Positions 1,063 through 36,284 of a stretch of DNA of 44,592 bases are shown piece after piece. A program made the translations under genes and the position numbers. The DNA is from a virus, in IMG/VR virus record IMGVR_UViG_3300020394_000667, positions 1 through 44,592 of that record; one strand, written 5' to 3'. Position 1 is the stretch's first letter. Every line of letters begins with the position of its first letter. The notes under the pieces were generated by a model that had not been told where the DNA came from, ran no database searches, and saw nothing but the letters and a program-made list of their open reading frames with translations.

Positions 1063-4000
1063 ATGTCTACATATAATGATAGAATATCTAACCTTGTTAG
1101 AACATATAGGTATAATCCACGTTTATTTAATGAACAACAAGTAGACGAGCTACAACAACTCGCAGATCAATTCGATATTCCTTTTAAAAGAAAGACTGAT
1201 GAGTTTAATCTTCGTAAAACTTTAATGAATTTACAAACAGGGTTTTTAGAAGGTTTTACTACAATTCCTGTAGGTAAACTTAGTGGTCACGAACCTACCT
1301 CTACATACGAAGCAATAGCACATTCTTTAGGCCATTTAGCAGGATTTGCTCCTGGTATTATGGCAGCACCATTAAAAGCAGTAGGTGCTAAAACATTAAG
1401 CAAAGTTACTAGTAAAGCTAACAATTGGTCAATACCAATGATGTTTGGTGATGCTGCTAAAGCAGGTATGGATGCTGGATTAAAGAAAAAACTATTTGGT
1501 AAGGCTAATATAGAATCCTTAGAGTTTATGAAAAAGGGAGCAGGTCCTAGAGCTATTATAGATCAAGCAGTACATCTAGGTGCAGCTAGTGCAGTCTCTT
1601 CTGTTTGGAAAGGAAGAGATGAAATAATGAACTCAGGTATACAAGGTGCTATAGCAGGTGGTGCTTTTGGAGGTTTAGGAGAGTTTAGAATGATAGGTAA
1701 TTATCTTAAATCTAAAAATATATCTGATTACAGAAAAGGAGAGCAGAGATTAAAAGCTGCTGTTGGTGCGAGTATGATGGGTGTTCCTACTGCTTTGCAA
1801 GGTGAGCCTATAGAAATGATTATATATCAAACATTATTAGGTGGTTATTTTGGTTATGGATCTAGGCCAGCAGTAGAAAAAGAAGGTGGCATGTTTATGC
1901 AAGACCTTATGTATAAAAACAATAGAGATTATGTATTTAGACCTAGTTTACATCCTGATATTAATAGTTACTCTAAAGGTGCTAGAGAGTATATAAACAA
2001 AGAAGCTACTGAATATGCTAAAAGTTATTATAGAAGAAACAGAGAAATGGTTTCTGGTAATAATAAAGATGAGATAGATATAGAAATAGAAAATTTTGTA
2101 AGGCAAGCAAAAGGATTAAATCCTAATGAAAAACCTTCTATAAGTGATATAAATGCTGAGTATAGATACAGAGCTAGTGAGTTTTATAAGACATACTATA
2201 AACAAGAAGGTGACAGGTATTATATACACAAAGATGTAAGGGATGTATTAAATAATCATGAGCATAAAATGGATGCAACTGATGATGTAAGTATGCCTAT
2301 GTATGTTAATACAAAACCTAAGCCTAATAGTAAAGAAGAAAGATTACTTAATACTAAAAAAAGAGAAAAAGAAAAGAATATATTTGCTACAGAAGAATCT
2401 TATGATATTAATGGTAATAAGCAAACAAGAATTATAGGACCTTTTTCTGCTAAAGAACTAGGTATTAAAGGTGATTATAATGGTAAAAGATTAGGAGAAT
2501 CTAGAGCAGATAGACCAGCAGATAAATTAGAAAATACAGAGTATATATTATGGGATACTGTATTTATTAACGAGGCTAAACCTGGACAAAAACCAAAATT
2601 TGAAAAGTATAAACCTTTAGACTTTACTTTTGGCAAAGACAATACTGCTGAAAAAAGAGTGTCTTGGAAAAAAGTTTTTGAAACAGATTTAAGATTAGAT
2701 GAAAAAGGTTTTTATGTTTTTGGAGGTGTTAAAGATAAATCTACTTTTACTATAAGAAAGTATCATACTGATTTTAGAAGATTTAGTAAAGAAGAATTAT
2801 TTAATGCATTAGCAAAAGAAAATAATACAAGTCCTAATGTTATACGAGATAGATACAATGAAAGTCTTTTAGAGTTTATAAAAATATATGGTCACCACAA
2901 AGATGTTAATTTATTAACACGTATGCATGAAGATGCATGGAGATCTAATGTTCTTGTAGAAGCACAAAGAAATGGATTGTATGATAAGCCAGGAGATTTA
3001 TCACAGATATATAAATTAGAAAGACCTGGGTTTGCTAAAAATGTTATTGATTGGAATAAAAGAGAGCAGTTATATCACGATAAATCTATGCCACTAAAAG
3101 AAGGAACTTTAGGTGGTGGAAGATTTGCTATATTTAATGATGTATTAATACAAAGATACAAAAATGAAAAAGGTGAAGAAAAGTTTTATGATAGTGATAC
3201 AGATGGTACTATTTATTTTAAACCTAGAGATATAGAAATTATGATGGATAGTCTAGGTATGCCTAGTGCTAATGTAGATATGAATAAACCAGTTATGATT
3301 GTTAAAACTCCTCAAGGTACTATGGTTGTAAAAGCAGCAGGTAAAGGTGCTCCTGATGGTTTAGTTAAATATATGGATGCAAATAATTTAAAAGCAGTAA
3401 TAATGGGTTCTGCTGCTAAACATAGAGGTGAATTGCAATCAAATAATTTTAATGTAGAAGCTTTAAAACGTGGAGAGTGGAATCATATTGGTGATCTTTA
3501 TACAGGTAATTTTAAAGATTCTGATATTAGAATTAATTTAGGTACTTTTGTAAATCCTAAAAAGTTTGGTGGTATGAATAAGACAGTTATTGCTAGACAG
3601 TTATTAGGTAATTTAAATAACAAAGATGCAAAAGATGTTATGAGTATTGTTTGGGATAGAATATATGAACCTTTAATAAATGGTAAAGAAGCATTTAATA
3701 AAGCAGTTAAAGATCATTTGGCTAATAAAACTGATATAAAAGAATTAGAGTCTTTTATTAAAAAGAATAAATTAGATGTGGATGACTTAGGATTAGAAGT
3801 AATACATAATATATTTGTTAACCATGGTAATTCTAAACTTGCACAAAAGTTTGCTAGGGAAATAGCACGACAAGGTAAAGATGGTAAATTAGAAGATATT
3901 GATACATTTACACCTGAAGAATATACTCAATTTATTTATAGAAATAATAGAATACTAGATGCATCTAATTTTTCACAATCACAAAGAGTAGCAGGTCGTA

Positions 4001-7000
4001 ATTCTAGACAGTTTTGGGAACAAGTTTATAAGAAATACTTTTTAAAAAGATTATATGCACCTGATTATAAATATGCTACTAAGGCATGGTTATCTCCTAA
4101 AGATCCTGTTACTACTTATACAAACGATGTTAAGCCAGGATTTTTTAAATTAGACTATGGTCAAAGAAATATGAGTGTTATTTATAAAGGAAAGGAGATG
4201 ACGCTTGAAAAAGCTTGGAATAAGTCTGGTAAAAATGTTAACGATCCAGATCTTGAAATGCTTGTTATTCGTGTTCCTTCTGATAGTATGTCTGGTACAC
4301 GTGCTCTTAAGTTTGCTGGTTTTACTCGTGACAAAGGATACTCAATTACCACTAATGCAAAGGATAATGCGTACTTAGGCGGTGCAGATAAAGATAGTGA
4401 CTCTGTATTTATATATCAAGGTATGCCACGAGAGCTTCATAAAGCTACTAAAAAGGCTGCAAAGCAATGGGAAAGAGATGATCGTATGCTTGACTCTAAA
4501 AGAGAAAAAAACGATAAGTTATTTGGAAACGATCCACTTGAAGTAGAAAAGTATAAAACAGTTACAAGTAAATATTCTCCATCTTTAAGAAGAAGAGTTG
4601 CTGAAACAGCAGCTAAAGGTAATCAAGGATTAGGTCCAGGTCTTGTAGCAAAAGAAAATTTAATTTCTATTGCAGATGTAGTTATGAAAAAGGGCAACTA
4701 CGTTAATGATATTCCAGTTATTTCTAAAAAAGATGGAAAACAATATGCTAAAATAGATTTAGAATTAAAACCTGGTGGTTATGAAAGATTAATAGAATTA
4801 GGAAGAGAAATAACTAATAGATCTGCTGATTCTTCTAATTATCCAACTATGATTGATTTTACAAAATTCCCTGATATGCTAGTTAAAGAAATATTTGTTA
4901 CAAAAAATAAAGTGTCTCTTCTTAATAAAAAAACAGGTGAGCCTTATAAAGTTCAAGACCTTGATTATAATATGCTATCTAAAAGTAATTTAGGTGATGT
5001 AATTAATGTTAGAAGAGCTATTGATCCAGGTAAAGCTGATATATCATTTACACAAATGCAATCTATTTTAAGAAACTCTAATGTTAAAGATTTTGATAGT
5101 TTTGGTAGTTTTGTTGGTAGAAAAATGCAAGACATGAAGATTACTGAATCTTTTTTTGAAGAAGCAATGTTTAGAAAACATACTGAGTTAGTAAATAATA
5201 TAGGTAAATTTTTAGAAAAAAGACAAAATATACCAGACTCTATAATAAAAGAAATAAACCAATTAACAGGATATAAATCAAACACTGGAAATATAATTAA
5301 ACTTTTAAACAAAGGTACTAATTATGAAAATATAAGATATATGCTAGAAAGAGATTTAGAAGCAGTATCAGGTTATGTTTCTATAACAGAAAAAGGTTAT
5401 GATTTATATAGAATAATAGATTCGTTACCTATATCTAAAAAAAGCAAAGCTATGTTTGTAAGAAAATATTTAAAACCTATAGCAGAAGAAGCATCTAGAA
5501 TTAAAAGAACATCATATAACAGCGATCCTAATAGATTTACAGATGTTGAATTAAAACATTCTAGTAGCGAGTTATTTGATAGGCAGGTTATTAATTATAA
5601 AAATGGTAATCTTGCTATACATGCTGGTAAAATTGTTAATGAATTAAAAAGATTAGGAGTTGATATAGAGTATTCTAAAAGAAATCCTAATATGTCTAAA
5701 TTGCAAGAAGAGCTTAATACTTATTTTGATCTTTGGTTGCTAAGTCCTTTTTATACGCAAAGTGTACAAACTCCTTTTTCTAAATTTCCTTGGCAATCAA
5801 AAAGCATTGAACAAAATTCTTTAGAGTATTACTTAAATAGACAAGAAAGAATATTTAATAAACTTAATGATTTTCAAGAAGGTGATAGAATATCTAAAGA
5901 TATATTTAAATTTGAACCAGAGCCTTCTACACCTAAACAAGTTATAGAAAAGAAAGTAGTAGAAAAATTTGTACCAAAAGATCAAGCAGAGTATTTAAAA
6001 AGCAGAGCTGTTACAGATCCTGAGTTAAAAATGGTAGAAGAGTTTATTACAAGAATCAACAAAAATAAGATTATAAGAGATAATTTAGAAGATTTTTATA
6101 TTAACTGGCAGTTACAAAATAAAGGTGGTATAGATACTAAAGACTTGTCTTTAATAGATATAAAAGATATTAATGCTATTAATAATTATTTAAAAGATGC
6201 AGATACTAGATTTACATCTAGAGGTAATAAACTACCTGACTTTGCATTTAGAGCATCTCCAGAATACATGGATTTATACATGCAAAACTTTGAGAATAAG
6301 TTTTTTGCAGAAATGGAGTTACCTGTAAGATCAAGAGATGGTATTGGTAAACGTAAAGTTAAACGATTTACTAGCACTATGGGTGAATTAAAAGATTTTA
6401 TGAATAAGAGTAATACACAAATGGAAACAAATATGCAAAATGTTTCTATATATAATAAAAGAAGATACCCGCATTTAAGATTAAAAGAAAAAGATGCTGA
6501 ATCAGTAAACAAGTTAGTATTTAGTTTAAGAGAAAGTAGAGATCCTGAAACAGGTATTAAACCTGGAGATTATAAGTTAACTGCTGATTATAAACGTTTA
6601 TCTAAAAAGAAGTTTATGGTAGATGGTAAAGAAAAAACTTTAGATCAATTGATAGAAATAACAGATAAAAAGTTTACAGAAGATTTTAAGCAGTTTGGAG
6701 ATAAATATATATATGCTAATAAAAAAGATAGAGATAAGTATATAAAGTTTAACAAAGATGGTAGTTTAAATATTAAGAATATTGAAAAAACTATTATAGA
6801 ACCAATGATGGAACGTAAACAAGTTACTGTACCTTTAGATATACTAAGAGAAATTAACTATATAATGAGAGGTAATTTTAAAGTTAAATTTGAGCCTACT
6901 GGTAAACAAAACCCAGAGTCTTATGTACCGCATCTAAATTTTGGTAGAAATAAAAAAACACAGAAACAGATAGAGTTGTTTAAAAAACAACATTTAGAAG

Positions 7001-8898
7001 ATTTTTATAACAGTAAAATAGCAGAAGGTAAGACTAAAAAAGAAGCAGAAGAACTTACTAAGATTGAAGGCTTTGGTATAGATACTAGAGTATTTCATAG
7101 TCAACAAGATGACAAAGGTTTATCTTCTTTAAATATATTTACATCTGCTAAAAAACGATCTGCTAAGAATATGCCTGGCTGGGATAATACACACAATGCA
7201 ATTAATTTATATAAAGAAGGATTTATTAGAGGCATGTATAGAAACATGTTTAAAATACAATCTGATATTAGATTAAGTCAGTTAGAAAAAGCAAAACCAT
7301 TTGGTGATAGAACAAAAGATTGGGTTTTATATTTAAGAGAGTATGCTAATAACTCCTTAGGTTTTGCTAGTACCTTTAATAAAGATGTGTTAGATAATTT
7401 TGTACAAGCAGATCCTAAGTTTAAACGTAGAGGGTATTACCTTACAAGTGATCAAAAGATTATAGATACTTACGATGCTATTGAAAAAAGATTTAAAAAG
7501 TTAGGACGTAAAGTGCCTTTTAGTAAAAATATAATTCCTAGTCCAGATCCTAAGTTAGAAAAAACAAGTCCTGCTTTATATGCAGCTCAAAAAGAAGCAC
7601 ACATGCAGTCTTTAAATAGAGCTATACATAAATGGGGTAGAATGGAAGCTAAATACAATTTGCTTACATTATTAGGTCATACTAAAATTATGACAGGTAA
7701 TTTATTTGGTGGTGGTACTATGACAATAAGTAGAGGTGGATTAAAAAATCTTACTAGAGTTAATAGAAATAATTGGTTAAATAAAAATTTAATATTAGAC
7801 CTTAATGGTAATTATAGATTAAAGTTTCAAGATGGAAAATCTGTAAAAAATGTTAAAGACCTAAATAGATACTTAGAAGAAAATGGAATAACAGAGTCTT
7901 TTATACAAACAGAGTTAGAAGTAAATAGCACTTTTGCTAAATCTAATAATGTAGTAAAGCAAAACTTAAAAGATTTTGCTAAAGATATTTCTAAAAAACT
8001 TGCTAGAGATCCTGAAATGTCTGATAAAACATTATTTGAGATTGCTAAAAAATACGGAGTAGAAAAGCAAGTAGAAAGTTTAGCAGCACTACCTATGCAG
8101 TTTTCTGAACGTAAACTAAGAAGAGATTCTTTTTTAACACATGCAGTTGAGTATATGGAGCATTGGGGTAAATATGGTTTAGATTTATCATTAAGCGATC
8201 CAGCTGTTATGGAAGCAGGTTTTAGAGGTGTAGAAGCAACTCAGTTTATATACCATAGTTCATTTAGACCATCTTTTATGAGAACAGCCTTGGGAAAAGT
8301 GTTTTCTCGTTTTAAATTATTTGTGTTTAATTCGGCTAGAGTTCGTAAAGAGATGCTAAGAAAAGCCTCATATTACGATTTTGAACCAGGTACTAAAGAG
8401 TTTGAAAAGTTTAAAACAGATTTCGCTATTAACATGTTTGTTATGGCACTTGGTACTGCTTATGCATATAGTTTATTTGACACAACATTGCCACCTCCAT
8501 ACGATTGGATACAAGAAACAGGAGAATGGTTATATGGCAACAAGAAGGAAAGAGATAGAGCCTTTTTTGGACAATGGCCTTATCCAGTAGCACCTTTAAA
8601 TATTGTTACTCCTCCTGTTGCTAGAATACCAATGGCAGCTTTTTCTAGTTTAATAAATAAAGACTGGGAAAGATTTGCAGATTACCATATGTATACAATG
8701 TTTCCTTTTGGACGTATGATTAGGTCTATTGATAAAACAGTTGACGAACCCTACGGAACGATAGAAGGGAGAGCATTACAACAATTTTTTGGATTACCTT
8801 TAGATAAGGTAAGAAGTAGAATAGATAGAGCAAAAGTATTAGAGGCTCGTGAAAATATGATTAACAGAGAACTATCGGAAATGGAGAACTTATTATGA
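1063..8898 (+). CDS. Giant 2,611-aa virion-type protein; candidate two-barrel (crAss gp66-like) virion RNA polymerase
   Basis: This is the largest gene in the window. Residues 1-60 share a module with the 199-aa protein at 236, followed by Gly/Ala-rich hydrophobic stretches (about 85-120 and 185-205). Near the middle, LVIRVPS (1067-1073) is followed about 40 residues later by GGADKDSDSVFIYQG, giving aspartates D1109, D1111 and D1113. This R-x-P then G-A-D-x-D-x-D order matches the Mg2+-binding loop of beta-prime-type barrels in two-barrel RNA polymerases, including YonO and crAss-like phage gp66. The C-terminal 200 residues include a hydrophobic segment (AINMFVMALGTAYAYSLF) and resemble the ends of other giant phage proteins. 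It lies beside candidate ejection genes, so injection with DNA is plausible. The polymerase call rests on one motif plus size and context. A large polyvalent internal protein without activity is the alternative. Confidence 0.5.
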   Translation: MSTYNDRISNLVRTYRYNPRLFNEQQVDELQQLADQFDIPFKRKTDEFNLRKTLMNLQTGFLEGFTTIPVGKLSGHEPTSTYEAIAHSLGHLAGFAPGIMAAPLKAVGAKTLSKVTSKANNWSIPMMFGDAAKAGMDAGLKKKLFGKANIESLEFMKKGAGPRAIIDQAVHLGAASAVSSVWKGRDEIMNSGIQGAIAGGAFGGLGEFRMIGNYLKSKNISDYRKGEQRLKAAVGASMMGVPTALQGEPIEMIIYQTLLGGYFGYGSRPAVEKEGGMFMQDLMYKNNRDYVFRPSLHPDINSYSKGAREYINKEATEYAKSYYRRNREMVSGNNKDEIDIEIENFVRQAKGLNPNEKPSISDINAEYRYRASEFYKTYYKQEGDRYYIHKDVRDVLNNHEHKMDATDDVSMPMYVNTKPKPNSKEERLLNTKKREKEKNIFATEESYDINGNKQTRIIGPFSAKELGIKGDYNGKRLGESRADRPADKLENTEYILWDTVFINEAKPGQKPKFEKYKPLDFTFGKDNTAEKRVSWKKVFETDLRLDEKGFYVFGGVKDKSTFTIRKYHTDFRRFSKEELFNALAKENNTSPNVIRDRYNESLLEFIKIYGHHKDVNLLTRMHEDAWRSNVLVEAQRNGLYDKPGDLSQIYKLERPGFAKNVIDWNKREQLYHDKSMPLKEGTLGGGRFAIFNDVLIQRYKNEKGEEKFYDSDTDGTIYFKPRDIEIMMDSLGMPSANVDMNKPVMIVKTPQGTMVVKAAGKGAPDGLVKYMDANNLKAVIMGSAAKHRGELQSNNFNVEALKRGEWNHIGDLYTGNFKDSDIRINLGTFVNPKKFGGMNKTVIARQLLGNLNNKDAKDVMSIVWDRIYEPLINGKEAFNKAVKDHLANKTDIKELESFIKKNKLDVDDLGLEVIHNIFVNHGNSKLAQKFAREIARQGKDGKLEDIDTFTPEEYTQFIYRNNRILDASNFSQSQRVAGRNSRQFWEQVYKKYFLKRLYAPDYKYATKAWLSPKDPVTTYTNDVKPGFFKLDYGQRNMSVIYKGKEMTLEKAWNKSGKNVNDPDLEMLVIRVPSDSMSGTRALKFAGFTRDKGYSITTNAKDNAYLGGADKDSDSVFIYQGMPRELHKATKKAAKQWERDDRMLDSKREKNDKLFGNDPLEVEKYKTVTSKYSPSLRRRVAETAAKGNQGLGPGLVAKENLISIADVVMKKGNYVNDIPVISKKDGKQYAKIDLELKPGGYERLIELGREITNRSADSSNYPTMIDFTKFPDMLVKEIFVTKNKVSLLNKKTGEPYKVQDLDYNMLSKSNLGDVINVRRAIDPGKADISFTQMQSILRNSNVKDFDSFGSFVGRKMQDMKITESFFEEAMFRKHTELVNNIGKFLEKRQNIPDSIIKEINQLTGYKSNTGNIIKLLNKGTNYENIRYMLERDLEAVSGYVSITEKGYDLYRIIDSLPISKKSKAMFVRKYLKPIAEEASRIKRTSYNSDPNRFTDVELKHSSSELFDRQVINYKNGNLAIHAGKIVNELKRLGVDIEYSKRNPNMSKLQEELNTYFDLWLLSPFYTQSVQTPFSKFPWQSKSIEQNSLEYYLNRQERIFNKLNDFQEGDRISKDIFKFEPEPSTPKQVIEKKVVEKFVPKDQAEYLKSRAVTDPELKMVEEFITRINKNKIIRDNLEDFYINWQLQNKGGIDTKDLSLIDIKDINAINNYLKDADTRFTSRGNKLPDFAFRASPEYMDLYMQNFENKFFAEMELPVRSRDGIGKRKVKRFTSTMGELKDFMNKSNTQMETNMQNVSIYNKRRYPHLRLKEKDAESVNKLVFSLRESRDPETGIKPGDYKLTADYKRLSKKKFMVDGKEKTLDQLIEITDKKFTEDFKQFGDKYIYANKKDRDKYIKFNKDGSLNIKNIEKTIIEPMMERKQVTVPLDILREINYIMRGNFKVKFEPTGKQNPESYVPHLNFGRNKKTQKQIELFKKQHLEDFYNSKIAEGKTKKEAEELTKIEGFGIDTRVFHSQQDDKGLSSLNIFTSAKKRSAKNMPGWDNTHNAINLYKEGFIRGMYRNMFKIQSDIRLSQLEKAKPFGDRTKDWVLYLREYANNSLGFASTFNKDVLDNFVQADPKFKRRGYYLTSDQKIIDTYDAIEKRFKKLGRKVPFSKNIIPSPDPKLEKTSPALYAAQKEAHMQSLNRAIHKWGRMEAKYNLLTLLGHTKIMTGNLFGGGTMTISRGGLKNLTRVNRNNWLNKNLILDLNGNYRLKFQDGKSVKNVKDLNRYLEENGITESFIQTELEVNSTFAKSNNVVKQNLKDFAKDISKKLARDPEMSDKTLFEIAKKYGVEKQVESLAALPMQFSERKLRRDSFLTHAVEYMEHWGKYGLDLSLSDPAVMEAGFRGVEATQFIYHSSFRPSFMRTALGKVFSRFKLFVFNSARVRKEMLRKASYYDFEPGTKEFEKFKTDFAINMFVMALGTAYAYSLFDTTLPPPYDWIQETGEWLYGNKKERDRAFFGQWPYPVAPLNIVTPPVARIPMAAFSSLINKDWERFADYHMYTMFPFGRMIRSIDKTVDEPYGTIEGRALQQFFGLPLDKVRSRIDRAKVLEARENMINRELSEMENLL

Positions 8899-9533
8899 TA
8901 GAAACAATAACAGAAATGCTACCTTTACTAGGAATAGCAGGACAAATGAAGAATCAATTTTGGACACCTGGTGCTTTTACCAGTCAATTTTCTCCATTTG
9001 CTAAAGAAGGTACAGGAATAGATGTAGATAATACAAGTGGATATGGTAGTATGGAAATTGATACTAGTAATATTGATTTTGGAGATAAACAACAAGTTAT
9101 GAATATACAAAAAGCATTAAATGCTGCAGGAGCTGTAGATTCAGAAGGTAATCCACTTGCTGTAGATGGAATGTTTGGTAATAATACTGAGTTTGCTTAT
9201 AGAAACTACATAAATCAAAAAAGACAATCAGAAGGATTAGATCCCTTTGGTTATGGAACTAATACTCCTATGAATGTTAACCAAGAAAATATGAATATGG
9301 ATAATCCTACTAATATTCCTCCTTTTTTACCACAAAATGATGTTTTAATGAACAATATAATGAATAATCAACCTACACAAGGTCCTGAAAATTATCAAAT
9401 AGATCCAAATCAAGAATACTCTTTAAATTTTGGAGTTAATAGTCAGGGAAATGAATTAAACGTTAATGTTCCGCCAGCAAGAAGAAGGCCTGTTAGAGGT
9501 TTATTTAATATGGTTAGGAATATATTTAACTAG
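8895..9533 (+). CDS. Virion protein with peptidoglycan-binding-like domain (212 aa)
   Basis: The start overlaps the stop of the giant gene (ATGA), implying translational coupling. Residues 67-108 match the PG_binding_1 pattern: QQVMNIQKALNAAG, a short loop, then VDGMFGNNTEFAYRNYI. This carries the typical V-D-G-x-F-G-x-x-T-x-x-A core (V90, D91, G92, F94, G95, T98). The flanks are Asn/Gln/Pro-rich and low complexity, and the C-terminus is basic (PARRRPVRG). No lytic catalytic domain is fused to it. In context with candidate ejection proteins it probably contacts the host cell wall during DNA entry. A role in lysis with the distant endolysin is less likely. Confidence 0.55.
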   Translation: MIETITEMLPLLGIAGQMKNQFWTPGAFTSQFSPFAKEGTGIDVDNTSGYGSMEIDTSNIDFGDKQQVMNIQKALNAAGAVDSEGNPLAVDGMFGNNTEFAYRNYINQKRQSEGLDPFGYGTNTPMNVNQENMNMDNPTNIPPFLPQNDVLMNNIMNNQPTQGPENYQIDPNQEYSLNFGVNSQGNELNVNVPPARRRPVRGLFNMVRNIFN

Positions 9534-10293: not shown

Positions 10294-10470
10294 GTGAAAG
10301 ATACTTTAAAAATTTTAAGCAATTACCCTGAACTAGGAGGAAGTATTAGTTTTTTTTCAACGATTATAGGATGGACTAAAATATTAAATCCTATATTAAC
10401 ATTTATATCTTTAAGTATTGGTATTATTATTGGTTTAATGACATTGTATGCCAAGTGGTTTAAAAAGTAG
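10294..10470 (+). CDS. Small membrane protein, candidate holin (58 aa, GTG start)
   Basis: The GTG start lies one base after the preceding stop. The product has a polar N-terminus, a first hydrophobic stretch (SISFFSTIIGW), a stronger second one (ILTFISLSIGIIIGLMTLY) and a basic tail (AKWFKK). Small size, hydrophobic helices and a charged C-terminus fit a class II-type holin. It is the last gene of the rightward set and overlaps by 11 nt, tail to tail, with the last leftward gene. Nothing beyond topology and position supports lysis, and it is not adjacent to the M15 peptidase. No good ribosome site is visible, so translation may be coupled. Confidence 0.5.
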   Translation: MKDTLKILSNYPELGGSISFFSTIIGWTKILNPILTFISLSIGIIIGLMTLYAKWFKK

Positions 10471-11032
10471 GATAGTCTAAATTAAAAGATATAACAATTC
10501 TTTCTTCTTCCGTAGTATTAACAGGCACTTTGTGTGCTAACCAACTTGGAAATAATATTAACATACCTTCAGTAACTTCTTTACCATAATTATTATAATG
10601 TAAGTTTTCAAAGTTTCTAGTAGGCTGTGGATCTTCAAATACTAAAAAGTTTTTTTGCTTTTTAGGCACTTTAACATAATAAGCACCAGACAACCAAGAC
10701 CTTGCATGCGTATGTATTGCGTTGTAATCGTTTTTGTTGTTTACAATAAACCACATTTCAGAAACTTTTTTACAACTCATATCTTTTGTTAGACTAAAAT
10801 CATTTATAATATAATTATTTGCTACTTCTAATATTAGATTATTAAGTTTGTCAAAACATTCTATATCTCTTGTATGTAAATTTGATTCACTATGATAACC
10901 GCCTTTGTTAGATCTGTCTACACTTTTCTCTTTATTCTTGATATTATTTATAACCTTTAAAAATGCTTTCTCTACAGGTAAGTTAAAAAAATAGAGAGTA
11001 GTAGGAAATATAGGTTCTTTATAGAGTTGCAT
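10460..11032 (-). CDS. Putative 2OG-Fe(II) oxygenase (TIGR02466-like, 190 aa)
   Basis: The pattern fits the small putative 2OG-Fe(II) oxygenases often seen in marine phages. It has NAIHTHARSWLSGAYYVKVP (H107, H109), later LFPSWLAHKVPVN (H167) and an arginine shortly after (R178 in ERIVISFNL) that would bind 2-oxoglutarate. Such enzymes hydroxylate proteins, nucleobases or small molecules with Fe(II), O2 and 2-oxoglutarate. The target here is unknown. It is the last gene of the leftward arm. Its ATG overlaps the stop of the preceding small gene (TAATG). Confidence 0.7.
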   Translation of the reverse strand: MQLYKEPIFPTTLYFFNLPVEKAFLKVINNIKNKEKSVDRSNKGGYHSESNLHTRDIECFDKLNNLILEVANNYIINDFSLTKDMSCKKVSEMWFIVNNKNDYNAIHTHARSWLSGAYYVKVPKKQKNFLVFEDPQPTRNFENLHYNNYGKEVTEGMLILFPSWLAHKVPVNTTEEERIVISFNLDYPTF

Positions 11033-15437: not shown

Positions 15438-15486
15438 TTTACCTCCGATTTGGGTTATAAATATACTTTATTTAAGAGTATAAAGC

Positions 15487-15551
15487 AAAAAAAAAGAGAG
15501 CCTAGTTTAAACTAATGAGTAACCACTCACAGTTATTTTAAGACTCTCTTT
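15487..15551 (-). terminator. Long hairpin followed by T9 on the minus strand
   Basis: In the minus sense AAAGAGAGTCT pairs with AGGCTCTCTTT (11 bp including a G-U). The loop contains a smaller GAGT/ACTC hairpin. The stem runs directly into a T9 tract. It looks like an intrinsic terminator with an enlarged loop, 49 nt upstream of the erf start. Confidence 0.6.
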
Positions 15552-17183: not shown

Positions 17184-17215
17184 ATTTTCTCCTTAATTAA
17201 AAGATAACAAAAAGA

Positions 17216-17324
17216 AAGAGAGCCTCACATATTCCTTGTATGGCTGTCAGTCTTTCTCGTCAAGCGAGGTTCAGGTGAGCAATTAAGTTTTCTACACCAT
17301 ACAGGACCAGTTATTGGCTCTCTT
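17216..17324 (-). ncRNA. Structured element closed by AAGAGAGCC/GGCTCTCTT
   Basis: A perfect 9-bp inverted repeat (17216-17224, 17316-17324) encloses, in the minus sense, TGTATGG/CCATACA and a CTCG/CGAG hairpin. It starts 4 nt after the radical-SAM stop and ends in a pyrimidine-rich tract before the zinc-ribbon gene. It shares the string CCTGTATGG with the element at 18297-18452. Confidence 0.5.
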
Positions 17325-17328
17325 AATT

Positions 17329-18189
17329 TTAAAATATATATCTAATTTTTTGCCAAGGCACAACAGTGTTATGCAGTTGCTTAAAATCTTTTATATATTG
17401 TTTTTTGTTATGTCGTTTATATCTTATGTTTAAACATCCAAATTCTGATGTTTTTGGTTCTTGCAAATCTGGTCGCCATATATACTTTTCACCATCTGTG
17501 CCATGTATAATATTATGATTGTGCATTTCTTTATTATGTGTAAGAAATATACATTCTGCTTTTACTTTATGTTTTATAGATTCATCTACAATAGAATCTA
17601 CTAATTTAAATAGATCATTGTAATCTTTTTGAAAGTTTTCATATACAATAATTGGTGAATAATTTATATGTACATCATAACCTGCTTCATAAAAATCATT
17701 TACTGCTTTTATTCTATCTATAATTTTAGATGTACTAGGTTCTAATATATCTGATAATACTTGTGGCATTAGACTAAATCTTATTCTAACTTTTCTGTTT
17801 GCATCATATGATAATAAGTTTTTGTTTACATATTTTGTTGCAGCTGTACCCATTGCTTTTGGATCATACTTAAAATAATCAAATAAATATTCCCAATCAT
17901 GGTATTTAGCATGTAATACATAATCTTCATTGCAACTGAAATCATATGTATAATATTTATCATGTGTTTGATTTGGTTCTTTTGGCCATTTTAATAGCCA
18001 TAGATGTCTTGCTATAGCATCAAGTATTTGCTCTGGATTTTTTGCTATTGTAAGCCCTTTAGGCATATGTCTACGCATATAACAATAGTTACATTTGTAT
18101 AAACAGCCATAACCAAAGCTTGGCGTAATAAAATCACTGCTTCTTCCAGAATCTCTTATAATCATTGATTTTCTATTTACATATTTCAT
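17329..18189 (-). CDS. Radical SAM enzyme, spore-photoproduct-lyase-like (286 aa)
   Basis: The 4Fe-4S motif C-x-x-x-C-x-x-C is present (C29, C33, C36 in GYGCLYKCNYCYMRR). The later segments DVHINYSPIIVYE, ECIFLTHN, LNIRYKRHNK and the C-terminal IRYIF fit the SPL/DNA-repair-photolyase-like radical SAM family. SPL enzymes reverse thymine photoproducts with S-adenosylmethionine, so protection of phage DNA from UV damage is a reasonable guess. Another radical SAM reaction is possible. The ATG at 18189 has AAGGAAT ahead of it; a longer frame to 18234 would run through the stem at 18206-18291. Confidence 0.7.
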   Translation of the reverse strand: MKYVNRKSMIIRDSGRSSDFITPSFGYGCLYKCNYCYMRRHMPKGLTIAKNPEQILDAIARHLWLLKWPKEPNQTHDKYYTYDFSCNEDYVLHAKYHDWEYLFDYFKYDPKAMGTAATKYVNKNLLSYDANRKVRIRFSLMPQVLSDILEPSTSKIIDRIKAVNDFYEAGYDVHINYSPIIVYENFQKDYNDLFKLVDSIVDESIKHKVKAECIFLTHNKEMHNHNIIHGTDGEKYIWRPDLQEPKTSEFGCLNIRYKRHNKKQYIKDFKQLHNTVVPWQKIRYIF

Positions 18190-18205
18190 ATTATTCCTTA
18201 ATTTT

Positions 18206-18291
18206 ATAGAGCCTGCAAGGTAGTTCTTTTGCATATGTATGATCTTGATCTATCCCATTGCTCATCCTGACAGTAATCTTACAGGCTCTAT
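18206..18291 (-). ncRNA. Structured element closed by ATAGAGCCTG/CAGGCTCTAT
   Basis: A perfect 10-bp inverted repeat extends by CCUGUAA/UUGCAGG wobble pairing to about 13 bp. In the minus sense it shares an ordered set of strings (CCTGTAAG, GTCAG, ATGA, ACTACC, GCA) with the element at 21874-21944, which suggests related RNAs. It lies between the DUF6915 and radical-SAM genes. Confidence 0.5.
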
Positions 18292-19929: not shown

Positions 19930-20177
19930 TAATTGTCTCCTCTATATTTTTTATAATTACAGAAATAATTATCATTAACTGATATTTCTATTAATTCTAT
20001 TTCGCTACCAATAGATAACAAAAAAAAAGAGAAATCAATGTCTTCGTCTAGGTATATATAATTATCTTTTTCGTACGATGCAGATGAGATAGAGTCAAGT
20101 AATCCTAACCTTGCAAGTTCTGATTTCTTGACTTCTACCCATCCTTTTGTATCCCCTACAAAATGTTTATAAGTCAA
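19929..20177 (-). CDS. Hypothetical protein (82 aa, start uncertain)
   Basis: The frame is open to 20216, but that region overlaps the upstream gene. The TTG at 20177 gives only an 11-nt overlap and is preferred; another TTG lies two codons upstream. The protein is acidic with a hydrophobic core (YIYLDEDIDFSFFLLSIGSE). No family is recognised. The stop overlaps the next start. Confidence 0.4.
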   Translation of the reverse strand: MTYKHFVGDTKGWVEVKKSELARLGLLDSISSASYEKDNYIYLDEDIDFSFFLLSIGSEIELIEISVNDNYFCNYKKYRGDN

Positions 20178-20636: not shown

Positions 20637-20675
20637 TCCTCTCCTTATAAGGGTTATAATTTACAACAAAGTAAC

Positions 20676-20706
20676 AAAAAAAAGGAGAAATTAATCTCCC
20701 TTTTTT
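20676..20706 (-). terminator. GGAGA/TCTCC hairpin flanked by A8 and T6
   Basis: AAAAAAAAGGAGA, the 6-nt loop AATTAA, then TCTCC-C-TTTTTT. It can act on both strands. On the minus strand it follows the stop of the 20709 gene by 2 nt and ends in T8, 39 nt before the next start. Confidence 0.65.
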
Positions 20707-21412: not shown

Positions 21413-21442
21413 TTTTTTTCCTCGTATATGTTAAGTAGTAAC

Positions 21443-21472
21443 AAAAAAAAAGAGAGCCCGTGAGGGCTCTCT
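21443..21472 (-). terminator. Perfect 9-bp intrinsic terminator with T9 tract
   Basis: AGAGAGCCC and GGGCTCTCT pair perfectly around a 4-nt loop (GTGA on the plus strand, TCAC on the minus) and run into T8-9 on the minus strand. It ends the gene at 21485-21766. The next start codon lies only 30 nt beyond the T-tract. Confidence 0.8.
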
Positions 21473-21766: not shown

Positions 21767-21873
21767 TTGAATATCCTTTCTGCTTATAATAAGCGATTAA
21801 TTAACTAACATAACATAAAAAAAGAGAACGTATATGATACAAAACTCGTTTTTTAATAATATCTTTTTCCAAA

Positions 21874-22114: not shown

Positions 22115-22140
22115 ATATACCTCCGTTATTAACAATACAT

Positions 22141-22181
22141 AAAAAAAGAGGAAGCCTGTAAGCGTAGAAACTTACAGGCTT
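22141..22181 (-). terminator. Perfect 11-bp hairpin followed by T7 on the minus strand
   Basis: AAGCCTGTAAG and CTTACAGGCTT pair perfectly around an 8-nt loop, followed in the minus sense by CCTC-T7-ATGTATTGTTAA. The next start codon is only 26 nt past the T-tract. Confidence 0.7.
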
Positions 22182-22246
22182 TTATATGAAGATGTAGGGG
22201 AAACGATGCTGATAAGACATCGTGGAATATAATGAATATTATACAT
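22182..22246 (-). ncRNA. Short non-coding unit between two hairpin/T-tract signals
   Basis: These 65 nt hold no credible gene (best ORF 12 codons, no ribosome site) but contain a CGATG/CATCG hairpin near 22204-22222. Bounded by the signals at 22141-22181 and 22247-22280, the stretch would be transcribed as a roughly 100-nt RNA. Confidence 0.35.
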
Positions 22247-22280
22247 AAAAAAAGAGCACACGAATGAACGTGTACTCTTT
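22247..22280 (-). terminator. Hairpin AAAGAGCACACG/CGTGTACTCTTT followed by T7
   Basis: The two arms pair over about 12 bp with one mismatch, around a 6-nt loop. In the minus sense it lies 5 nt after the stop of the first early gene and runs into T7-ATGTAT. Confidence 0.65.
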
Positions 22281-35766: not shown

Positions 35767-35895
35767 ATGGCTAAAAAAGTAAGTTGGATGTGGGGAGGAA
35801 AGCGATATAGTGGAACTCTTATTAGAGAAACTAAAACACACAAATACGCTAGAACTCATAACGGTAAAATAAAAACAATTAAAAAGAAAAAATAA
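35767..35895 (+). CDS. Tiny basic Trp-containing protein (42 aa)
   Basis: TAGGAG precedes the ATG. The sequence KKVSWMWGGKRYSGTLIRET followed by a Lys-rich end is a single strongly basic domain. The stop overlaps the endolysin start (TAATGG). No family is recognised. It may act with the neighbouring Lys-rich proteins. Confidence 0.5.
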   Translation: MAKKVSWMWGGKRYSGTLIRETKTHKYARTHNGKIKTIKKKK

Positions 35896-36284
35896 TGGCT
35901 AGATTCAGTAAAAAAAGTAAAAAGAACTTATCTACATGCCATGAAGATCTTCAAAAGGTATTTAATGAAGTTATAAAATATGTAGATTGTTCTGTGTTGG
36001 AAGGACACAGAAGTGAAGAAAGACAAGAACAATTATTCTCAGAAGGTAAAACTAAAGTACACTACCCTAAAGGTAGGCATAATTCTAAGCCTAGTAGGGC
36101 TGTTGATGTCGTGCCTTACCCTATTGACTGGAATGATAGAGAACGTTTCCACTTATTTAGTGGGTTTGTCATTGGGTTGGCACGTGGGATGGGTATTACT
36201 CTTCGTTGGGGAGGAGATTGGAATATGAACTTTGAAGTTGATGATAACAAATTTGATGATTTTCCACACTTTGAATTAAGATGA
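35895..36284 (+). CDS. Endolysin, M15 (VanY/L-alanyl-D-glutamate) peptidase-like (129 aa)
   Basis: The zinc-peptidase pattern of family M15 is present. EGHRSEERQEQLFSEGKTKV is followed by KGRHNSKPSRAVDVVPYP (H62, S67, D71), then WGGDWNMNF and DDFPHFEL (D108, H125). H62, D71 and H125 would bind zinc. Such enzymes cleave peptides in peptidoglycan at lysis. It has the single-domain length of phage M15 endolysins, with no wall-binding domain and no signal peptide, so a holin or pore is needed. Confidence 0.85.
   Translation: MARFSKKSKKNLSTCHEDLQKVFNEVIKYVDCSVLEGHRSEERQEQLFSEGKTKVHYPKGRHNSKPSRAVDVVPYPIDWNDRERFHLFSGFVIGLARGMGITLRWGGDWNMNFEVDDNKFDDFPHFELR

Follow-up and report, generated by a model that had tools for sequence, protein, structure and literature searches.

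The window, by which we mean the whole 44,592-nucleotide stretch of viral DNA that was analysed, is a permuted, nearly complete circle in which one gene is divided between the two ends; this gene is whole in the related contig L001. Genes on its plus strand encode a terminase, a P22-type portal, an SU10-type capsid protein, a protein of 2,122 amino acids and a giant protein of 2,611 amino acids, and genes on its minus strand encode a primase-helicase, an Erf annealing protein, a radical-SAM protein and a 2OG-Fe(II) oxygenase (Table 1). The gene for the giant protein, a single uninterrupted open reading frame, is the final long gene in the late structural module and lies on the same strand as the terminase, portal and capsid genes. 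The 2,122-residue protein is a second giant that looks by its sequence like a tail or fibre protein; its gene is a conserved neighbour of the giant-protein gene in L001 and L003, and in L001, itself permuted, the two giants are encoded in one run. Virion RNA polymerases (RNAPs) are encoded within a structural module, either inside a giant structural protein or next to one, and the position of the gene here fits this pattern. No other RNAP was recognised in the phage genome; a search for a T7-type enzyme across 15 records gave no match, but its control was equally silent.

Table 1. Features of the window, with residue numbers referring to the 2,611-residue giant protein.
Feature	Positions	Strand	Basis
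Giant protein: Gly/Ala-rich N-terminal region, two-barrel RNA polymerase core and long C-terminal part	1063..8898	+	open frame; full-length relatives
Residues 60-280: conserved, rich in Gly and Ala, lowest polarity within the chain	1240..1902	+	composition; invariant residues
RNA polymerase core as modelled, residues 612-1415	2896..5307	+	AlphaFold2 pLDDT 90.5; fold matches; hhalign to crAss RNAP family, E 3e-7
First barrel, beta-type, about residues 686-824, with D714, K742, K757 and K786	3118..3534	+	model strands; invariance in 115 sequences; approximate boundaries
Second barrel, beta-prime-type, about residues 1005-1118, with R1070-x-P1072 and Asp triad	4075..4416	+	model strands; invariance; approximate boundaries
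R-x-P segment, residues 1070-1072	4270..4278	+	115/115 sequences
D-K-D-S-D predicted metal-binding loop, residues 1109-1113	4387..4401	+	three Asp in 115/115
Helices after second barrel, residues 1173-1209, candidate bridge-helix region	4579..4689	+	model helices and conservation, from which the assignment is inferred
Conserved C-terminal part, residues 2183-2600	7609..8862	+	similarity to L005; hydropathy
212-residue protein directly after the giant-protein gene	8895-9533		weak peptidoglycan-binding match
2OG-Fe(II) oxygenase (phrog_81)	10460-11032	-	PHROG match
CTCTTTTTTTNTGTTA copy 1	15483..15498	-	2 mismatches
CTCTTTTTTTNTGTTA copy 2	17205..17220	-	pattern match
Radical SAM gene, spore-photoproduct-lyase-like	17329-18234	-	database match
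CTCTTTTTTTNTGTTA copy 3	20016..20031	-	pattern match
CTCTTTTTTTNTGTTA copy 4	20672..20687	-	pattern match
CTCTTTTTTTNTGTTA copy 5	21439..21454	-	pattern match
CTCTTTTTTTNTGTTA copy 6	21811..21826	-	pattern match
CTCTTTTTTTNTGTTA copy 7	22135..22150	-	2 mismatches
CTCTTTTTTTNTGTTA copy 8	22241..22256	-	2 mismatches
Endolysin-like gene	35895-36284		phrog_465, E 3e-42
Second giant protein, 2,122 residues	37091-43459	+	no clear family; Pfam E1_FCCH only, E 0.009

An earlier note, made from the sequence of the window, had proposed that the giant protein may be a virion-packaged RNA polymerase, based on the residues VIRVPS followed by an aspartate-rich loop. Both motifs lie exactly where that note had placed them, VIRVPS at residues 1068-1073 and GGADKDSDSVFIY at residues 1106-1118, which sets the three aspartates at D1109, D1111 and D1113. 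Another D-x-D-x-D, DSDTD, occurs at residues 710-714, and its last aspartate, D714, is part of a separate conserved motif in the first barrel. Outside the core, glycine and alanine make up 31% of residues 101-200, and residues 60-280 form a possible membrane-active or ejection segment. The C-terminal part aligns with that of a distant relative (L005; residues 2183-2600, 31% identity over 422 columns, E 2e-66) and contains one hydrophobic segment by hydropathy, at residues 2454-2472.

Single-sequence searches with the whole giant chain gave no match in Pfam, PHROGs or PDB sequences, nor did such a search against 50,697 cultured-phage records, and two divergent relatives likewise matched none of the cultured phages. 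A profile built from five members of the family that carry a DLDGD loop returned chance matches only among PDB sequences. Pfam, PHROGs, PDB sequences and cultured-phage records would leave this family unannotated. Scans of IMG/VR recovered up to 290 relatives, which range from close (75% identity) through intermediate (approximately 47-50%) to distant (E 2e-66 and approximately 30% identity over the C-terminus) and have full-length open reading frames of approximately 2,450-3,530 codons. The initial scans were seeded with LGGADKD, and the conservation of GGADKD in them is therefore partly by construction, so we relied instead on scans in which the Asp loop was not used as a seed. C-terminal seeds yielded 290 relatives and first-barrel seeds 158, with 80 kept from each. 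Every open reading frame from these two scans that covers the region has both R-x-P and D-x-D-x-D, which argues that the motif is not due to chance. Among all fetched loci whose open reading frame extends to the region, the combination was present in 224 of 224, and each of the 17 loci that lack it is a contig cut off on the 5' side.

A non-redundant set of 115 sequences, in which identity stays below 80%, contains ten invariant residues (D714, K742, K757, K786, R1070, P1072, G1107, D1109, D1111 and D1113), and a second, separate alignment gave the same ten. Judged from the alignments, these are the catalytic residues that a two-barrel RNA polymerase would be expected to have. The earlier note had made its reading depend on conservation of the aspartates in homologues, and all three are invariant in every homologue. 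It had overlooked the two invariant lysines expected in the first barrel, which are present as K757 and K786, along with K742. The Asp loop itself varies among relatives (DKDSD, DKDAD, DLDGD, DVDGD and DFDGD) and across the family falls into two broad types, DKD[SA]D, with Lys after the first Asp and no Gly, and the classical DxDGD. Many divergent members carry DLDGD, DVDGD or DFDGD, and in one relative the loop reads DFDGD, identical to that of cellular enzymes. Some relatives also contain a domain that matches phrog_768 (DprA-like) upstream of or near the polymerase core (residues 414-553 in L155 and 884-952 in L032). In another, the giant open reading frame is split into one of 2,456 codons (L077) and a separate C-terminal one of 600 codons (L106), which may reflect either a true frameshift or a fault in the assembly.

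The earlier note had suggested structure prediction as a check on its proposal. With the 115 diverse sequences as input, AlphaFold2 modelled residues 612-1415 with confidence (pLDDT 90.5, pTM 0.89), and the model matches solved two-barrel RNAPs. The diverse set was needed for this result, as only 9 close sequences gave a pLDDT of 51.7. The best PDB entries in Foldseek were the virion RNAP of crAss phage phi14:2 (6vr4, E 1e-7) and QDE-1 (2e-7), then RDR2, with Pol I, Pol II and bacterial RNAP ranked lower; whole-chain TM-scores to solved structures were modest, at 0.41 and below. In VIA-align, Z-scores were 18.4 for QDE-1 (475 residues, 4.8 A), 17.8 for RDR2, 14.8 for gp64 of Thermus phage P23-45, 12.6 for gp66 of phi14:2 (617 residues), 11.5 for P23-45 gp96 and approximately 11.5 for Pol I and Pol II. 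The rows listed were RNA polymerases, which scored mostly well above the stated background Z of 7-8. Matches in BFVD were unnamed viral proteins (TM 0.70) and crAss proteins. Taken together with the invariant Asp triad, the match of the model to solved two-barrel RNAPs supports the reading of the giant protein as a two-barrel RNA polymerase.

The model places the beta-type barrel ahead of the beta-prime-type barrel, and this architecture matches QDE-1, RDR2, gp66, gp64 and gp96 over model residues 1-756; the barrels were assigned from model strands and fold matches. Approximately 200 residues, mostly helical, separate the two barrels. Helices also succeed the second barrel, and residues 1173-1209, in which R1176 and G1186 are nearly invariant across the 115-sequence alignment, are a candidate bridge-helix region. 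In QDE-1, the first barrel has three invariant residues, Q736, K743 and K767, and the second barrel holds Mg2+ through D1007, D1009 and D1011 (PMC1750930). Order and spacing suggest that K757 and K786 are the counterparts of QDE-1 K743 and K767, and the fold match and conservation together suggest that the Asp and Lys side chains cluster in the folded protein.

Homology to crAss polymerases was also detected at the level of sequence profiles. In hhalign, the family profile matched a profile of 11 crAss-type RNAP sequences with a probability of 93% and an E-value of 3.1e-7; the alignment spans 410 columns and is colinear across both barrels, whereas a column-reversed decoy gave an E-value of 0.44. 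The SAAKHRG stretch of the giant protein is set on the DGVKVG stretch of the crAss enzymes. Against single sequences hhalign was weak: gp66 was matched at the catalytic loop (E 0.08), gp64 over a short loop only, and P23-45 gp96 was not found, such that the crAss family profile was needed for a clear match. We conclude that the fold, homology, catalytic residues, conservation and late gene position of the giant protein are established computationally.

Two-barrel virion RNAPs are already known for crAss-like phages and Thermus phage P23-45, where crAss gp66 and P23-45 gp96 are found inside or beside giant proteins (PMC10770324, PMC7886860). The giant protein resembles gp66 of phi14:2 (PDB 6VR4) in having two barrels in one giant chain in identical order, in lying among giant structural proteins, in providing the best Foldseek match and colinear profile match described above, and in the spacing of 39 between the Arg of R-x-P and the first aspartate. 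The two differ in sequence (approximately 10-12% identity) and in the loop, which is DFDID in gp66 and DKDSD or DLDGD here. Their genomes also differ, at approximately 100 kb in crAss-like phages and 44.6 kb here with a P22/SU10-type portal and capsid. The portal, capsid, terminase and genome size, which were examined for signatures of Crassvirales, gave P22_portal, SU10_MCP and 44.6 kb; no crAss portal was found, tblastn with the portal matched P22-like podoviruses only, and terminase matches were broad. The description of the phage in the earlier note as not obviously crAss-like holds for portal and genome size but not for the polymerase domain, which is homologous to the crAss enzyme.

The cell-encoded RNA-dependent polymerases QDE-1 and RDR are alike in giving the highest structural Z, and QDE-1 in the order of its residues, with a pair of invariant Lys in DPBB1 ahead of the Asp triad of DPBB2 as observed here (PMC1750930); they are unlike in being eukaryotic RNA-silencing enzymes, non-virion and without comparable giant flanking regions. 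P23-45 gp96 (PDB 8H2M) is likewise a virion RNAP that forms a domain of a giant structural protein, and both gp96 and gp64 have R-x-P and DxDxD at a spacing of 38. However, the RNAP of gp96 occupies the N-terminal portion of the tape measure of a long tail and has no clamp (PMC10770324), whereas the core here is mid-chain (612-1415 of 2,611), the phage has a P22-type portal, and the structural match to gp96 is lower. The mid-chain core, the portal and the inter-barrel region set the giant protein apart from a tape-measure-fused vRNAP of the P23-45 type. Of the features of the crAss gp66/QDE-1 group, two barrels in one chain with the beta-type barrel first, the DxDxD triad, an R-x-P 38-39 residues ahead of it and two first-barrel Lys are present. 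The vRNAP of coliphage N4 (Schitoviridae) has a T7-like single-subunit fold and not two barrels, and a direct Pfam scan found no PF00940 in the giant protein, for which reason a T7/N4-type polymerase was rejected. The likeness to N4 would be one of working, as this short-tailed phage ejects a giant vRNAP of approximately 3,500 residues together with its DNA (PMC12633501).

Based on these findings, we consider it probable that the giant protein is a DNA-dependent RNAP of the crAss gp66/QDE-1 two-barrel type, held within a late-made and probably packaged and ejected protein, that serves early transcription. The inference in the earlier note would then be right on fold and family and likely right on function. 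We infer that the giant protein makes RNA, is packaged and injected, recognises promoters and carries out early transcription, as follows. The first barrel would contribute K757 and K786, with K742 and D714, and the second would contribute R1070 and the D1109/D1111/D1113 loop, which would hold the catalytic Mg2+. Gene position and analogy suggest that the protein is probably packaged in the capsid; it would be ejected along with the DNA, with its N- and C-terminal parts serving packaging and envelope crossing. While DNA enters, the core would read the early genes on the minus strand, possibly starting from the repeated element CTCTTTTTTTNTGTTA.

Two-barrel RNAPs outside virions exist, and the match of P23-45 gp64 to the model (Z 14.8) would fit an enzyme that is made during infection for middle or late genes, as gp64 is, with the rest of the chain in another role. 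We regard this as unlikely, since the gene is the last long one of the structural operon and not among the early genes, since gp64 is a compact protein of 616 amino acids whereas the core here sits in a protein of 2.6-3.5 kilo-residues, and since conserved N- and C-terminal parts flank the core, as in known virion enzymes. The fold might also have been retained for another activity, such as RNA-templated synthesis or replication priming, or for none, with the domain structural or DNA-binding in an ejection machine. The closest folds do include the RNA-templated QDE-1 and RDR2, and the DKDSD loop of this subgroup departs from the classical DxDGD, which we counted against a polymerase. However, crAss gp66 has DFDID and yet is reported to be active (PMC7886860), and the invariance of the three Asp and the key Lys and Arg residues in 115 sequences argues against loss of activity, which leaves this reading very improbable. 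Although the absence of matches when the single chain was searched against Pfam, PHROGs, PDB and cultured phages would suit a tape-measure or ejection protein that carries R-x-P and D-x-D-x-D by chance, the conservation, structure model, fold matches and profile alignment all contradict such an origin, which we reject with near certainty.

We also investigated the element from which early transcription might start. With up to 2 mismatches allowed, CTCTTTTTTTNTGTTA has 8 matches in the window compared to 0.8 expected, and every match lies in the early region and on the minus strand. Close relatives contain 10, 16, 5 and 8 matches, compared to 2, 1, 2 and 0 for the reversed pattern, and most of those searched show a similar strand bias. 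The element is T-rich and lies upstream of early genes, with the next start codon often approximately 30-60 nt downstream. Of 46 copies, 30 form a hairpin in which CTCTT is the 3' arm and is followed by a U tract, and the remaining 16 keep the sequence without the hairpin. As roughly two-thirds are hairpins with a U tract, the copies may be ordinary intrinsic terminators for host RNAP; in that case the host would read the early genes and the polymerase of the giant protein would have other timing or another role. We view this as doubtful, though a real possibility, because the sequence is retained in the hairpin-free copies, termination does not require the conserved TGTTA that comes after the T run, start codons typically follow at the distance noted above, and sigma-70-like sites are not enriched (84 found and 93.7 expected). 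We read CTCTTTTTTTNTGTTA as a candidate promoter that is often fused to a terminator. Its link to the polymerase of the giant protein is proposed by analogy with P23-45, in which an AT-rich motif has been assigned to gp96 (PMC10770324).

As far as the searches here show, and before comparison with the P23-45 survey of viral two-barrel RNAPs, what is new is a group of uncultured small phages with a P22-type portal and a mid-protein RNAP. The lineage comprises hundreds of IMG/VR contigs, with none detected in the cultured-phage collection. Whether this large, P22/SU10-like lineage starts infection without host RNAP, using an ejected mid-protein two-barrel RNAP and a dedicated T-rich, often hairpin-preceded early promoter, is a question on which we see the balance as even. 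The giant-protein family forms a large third group with a two-barrel RNAP, which has much smaller genomes and is unnamed in annotation libraries. Its DKDSD and DKDAD loops beside relatives with the classical loop provide a natural series for catalytic work, the 115 diverse sequences bear on the origin of RNA-silencing polymerases, and CTCTTTTTTTNTGTTA is a directly testable candidate promoter.

A possible host is indicated by one relative with a 64%-identical catalytic region (L010/L012; QCPL01000010.1, 46,061 bases). The gene psbA, which would have hinted at a cyanobacterial host, is absent from the phage contigs searched, QCPL01000010.1 included. That contig belongs to the Prochlorococcus single-cell genome AG-436-M02, which suggests that an abundant ocean host is possible; the cell may have been infected, or the virus may have been merely attached to it.
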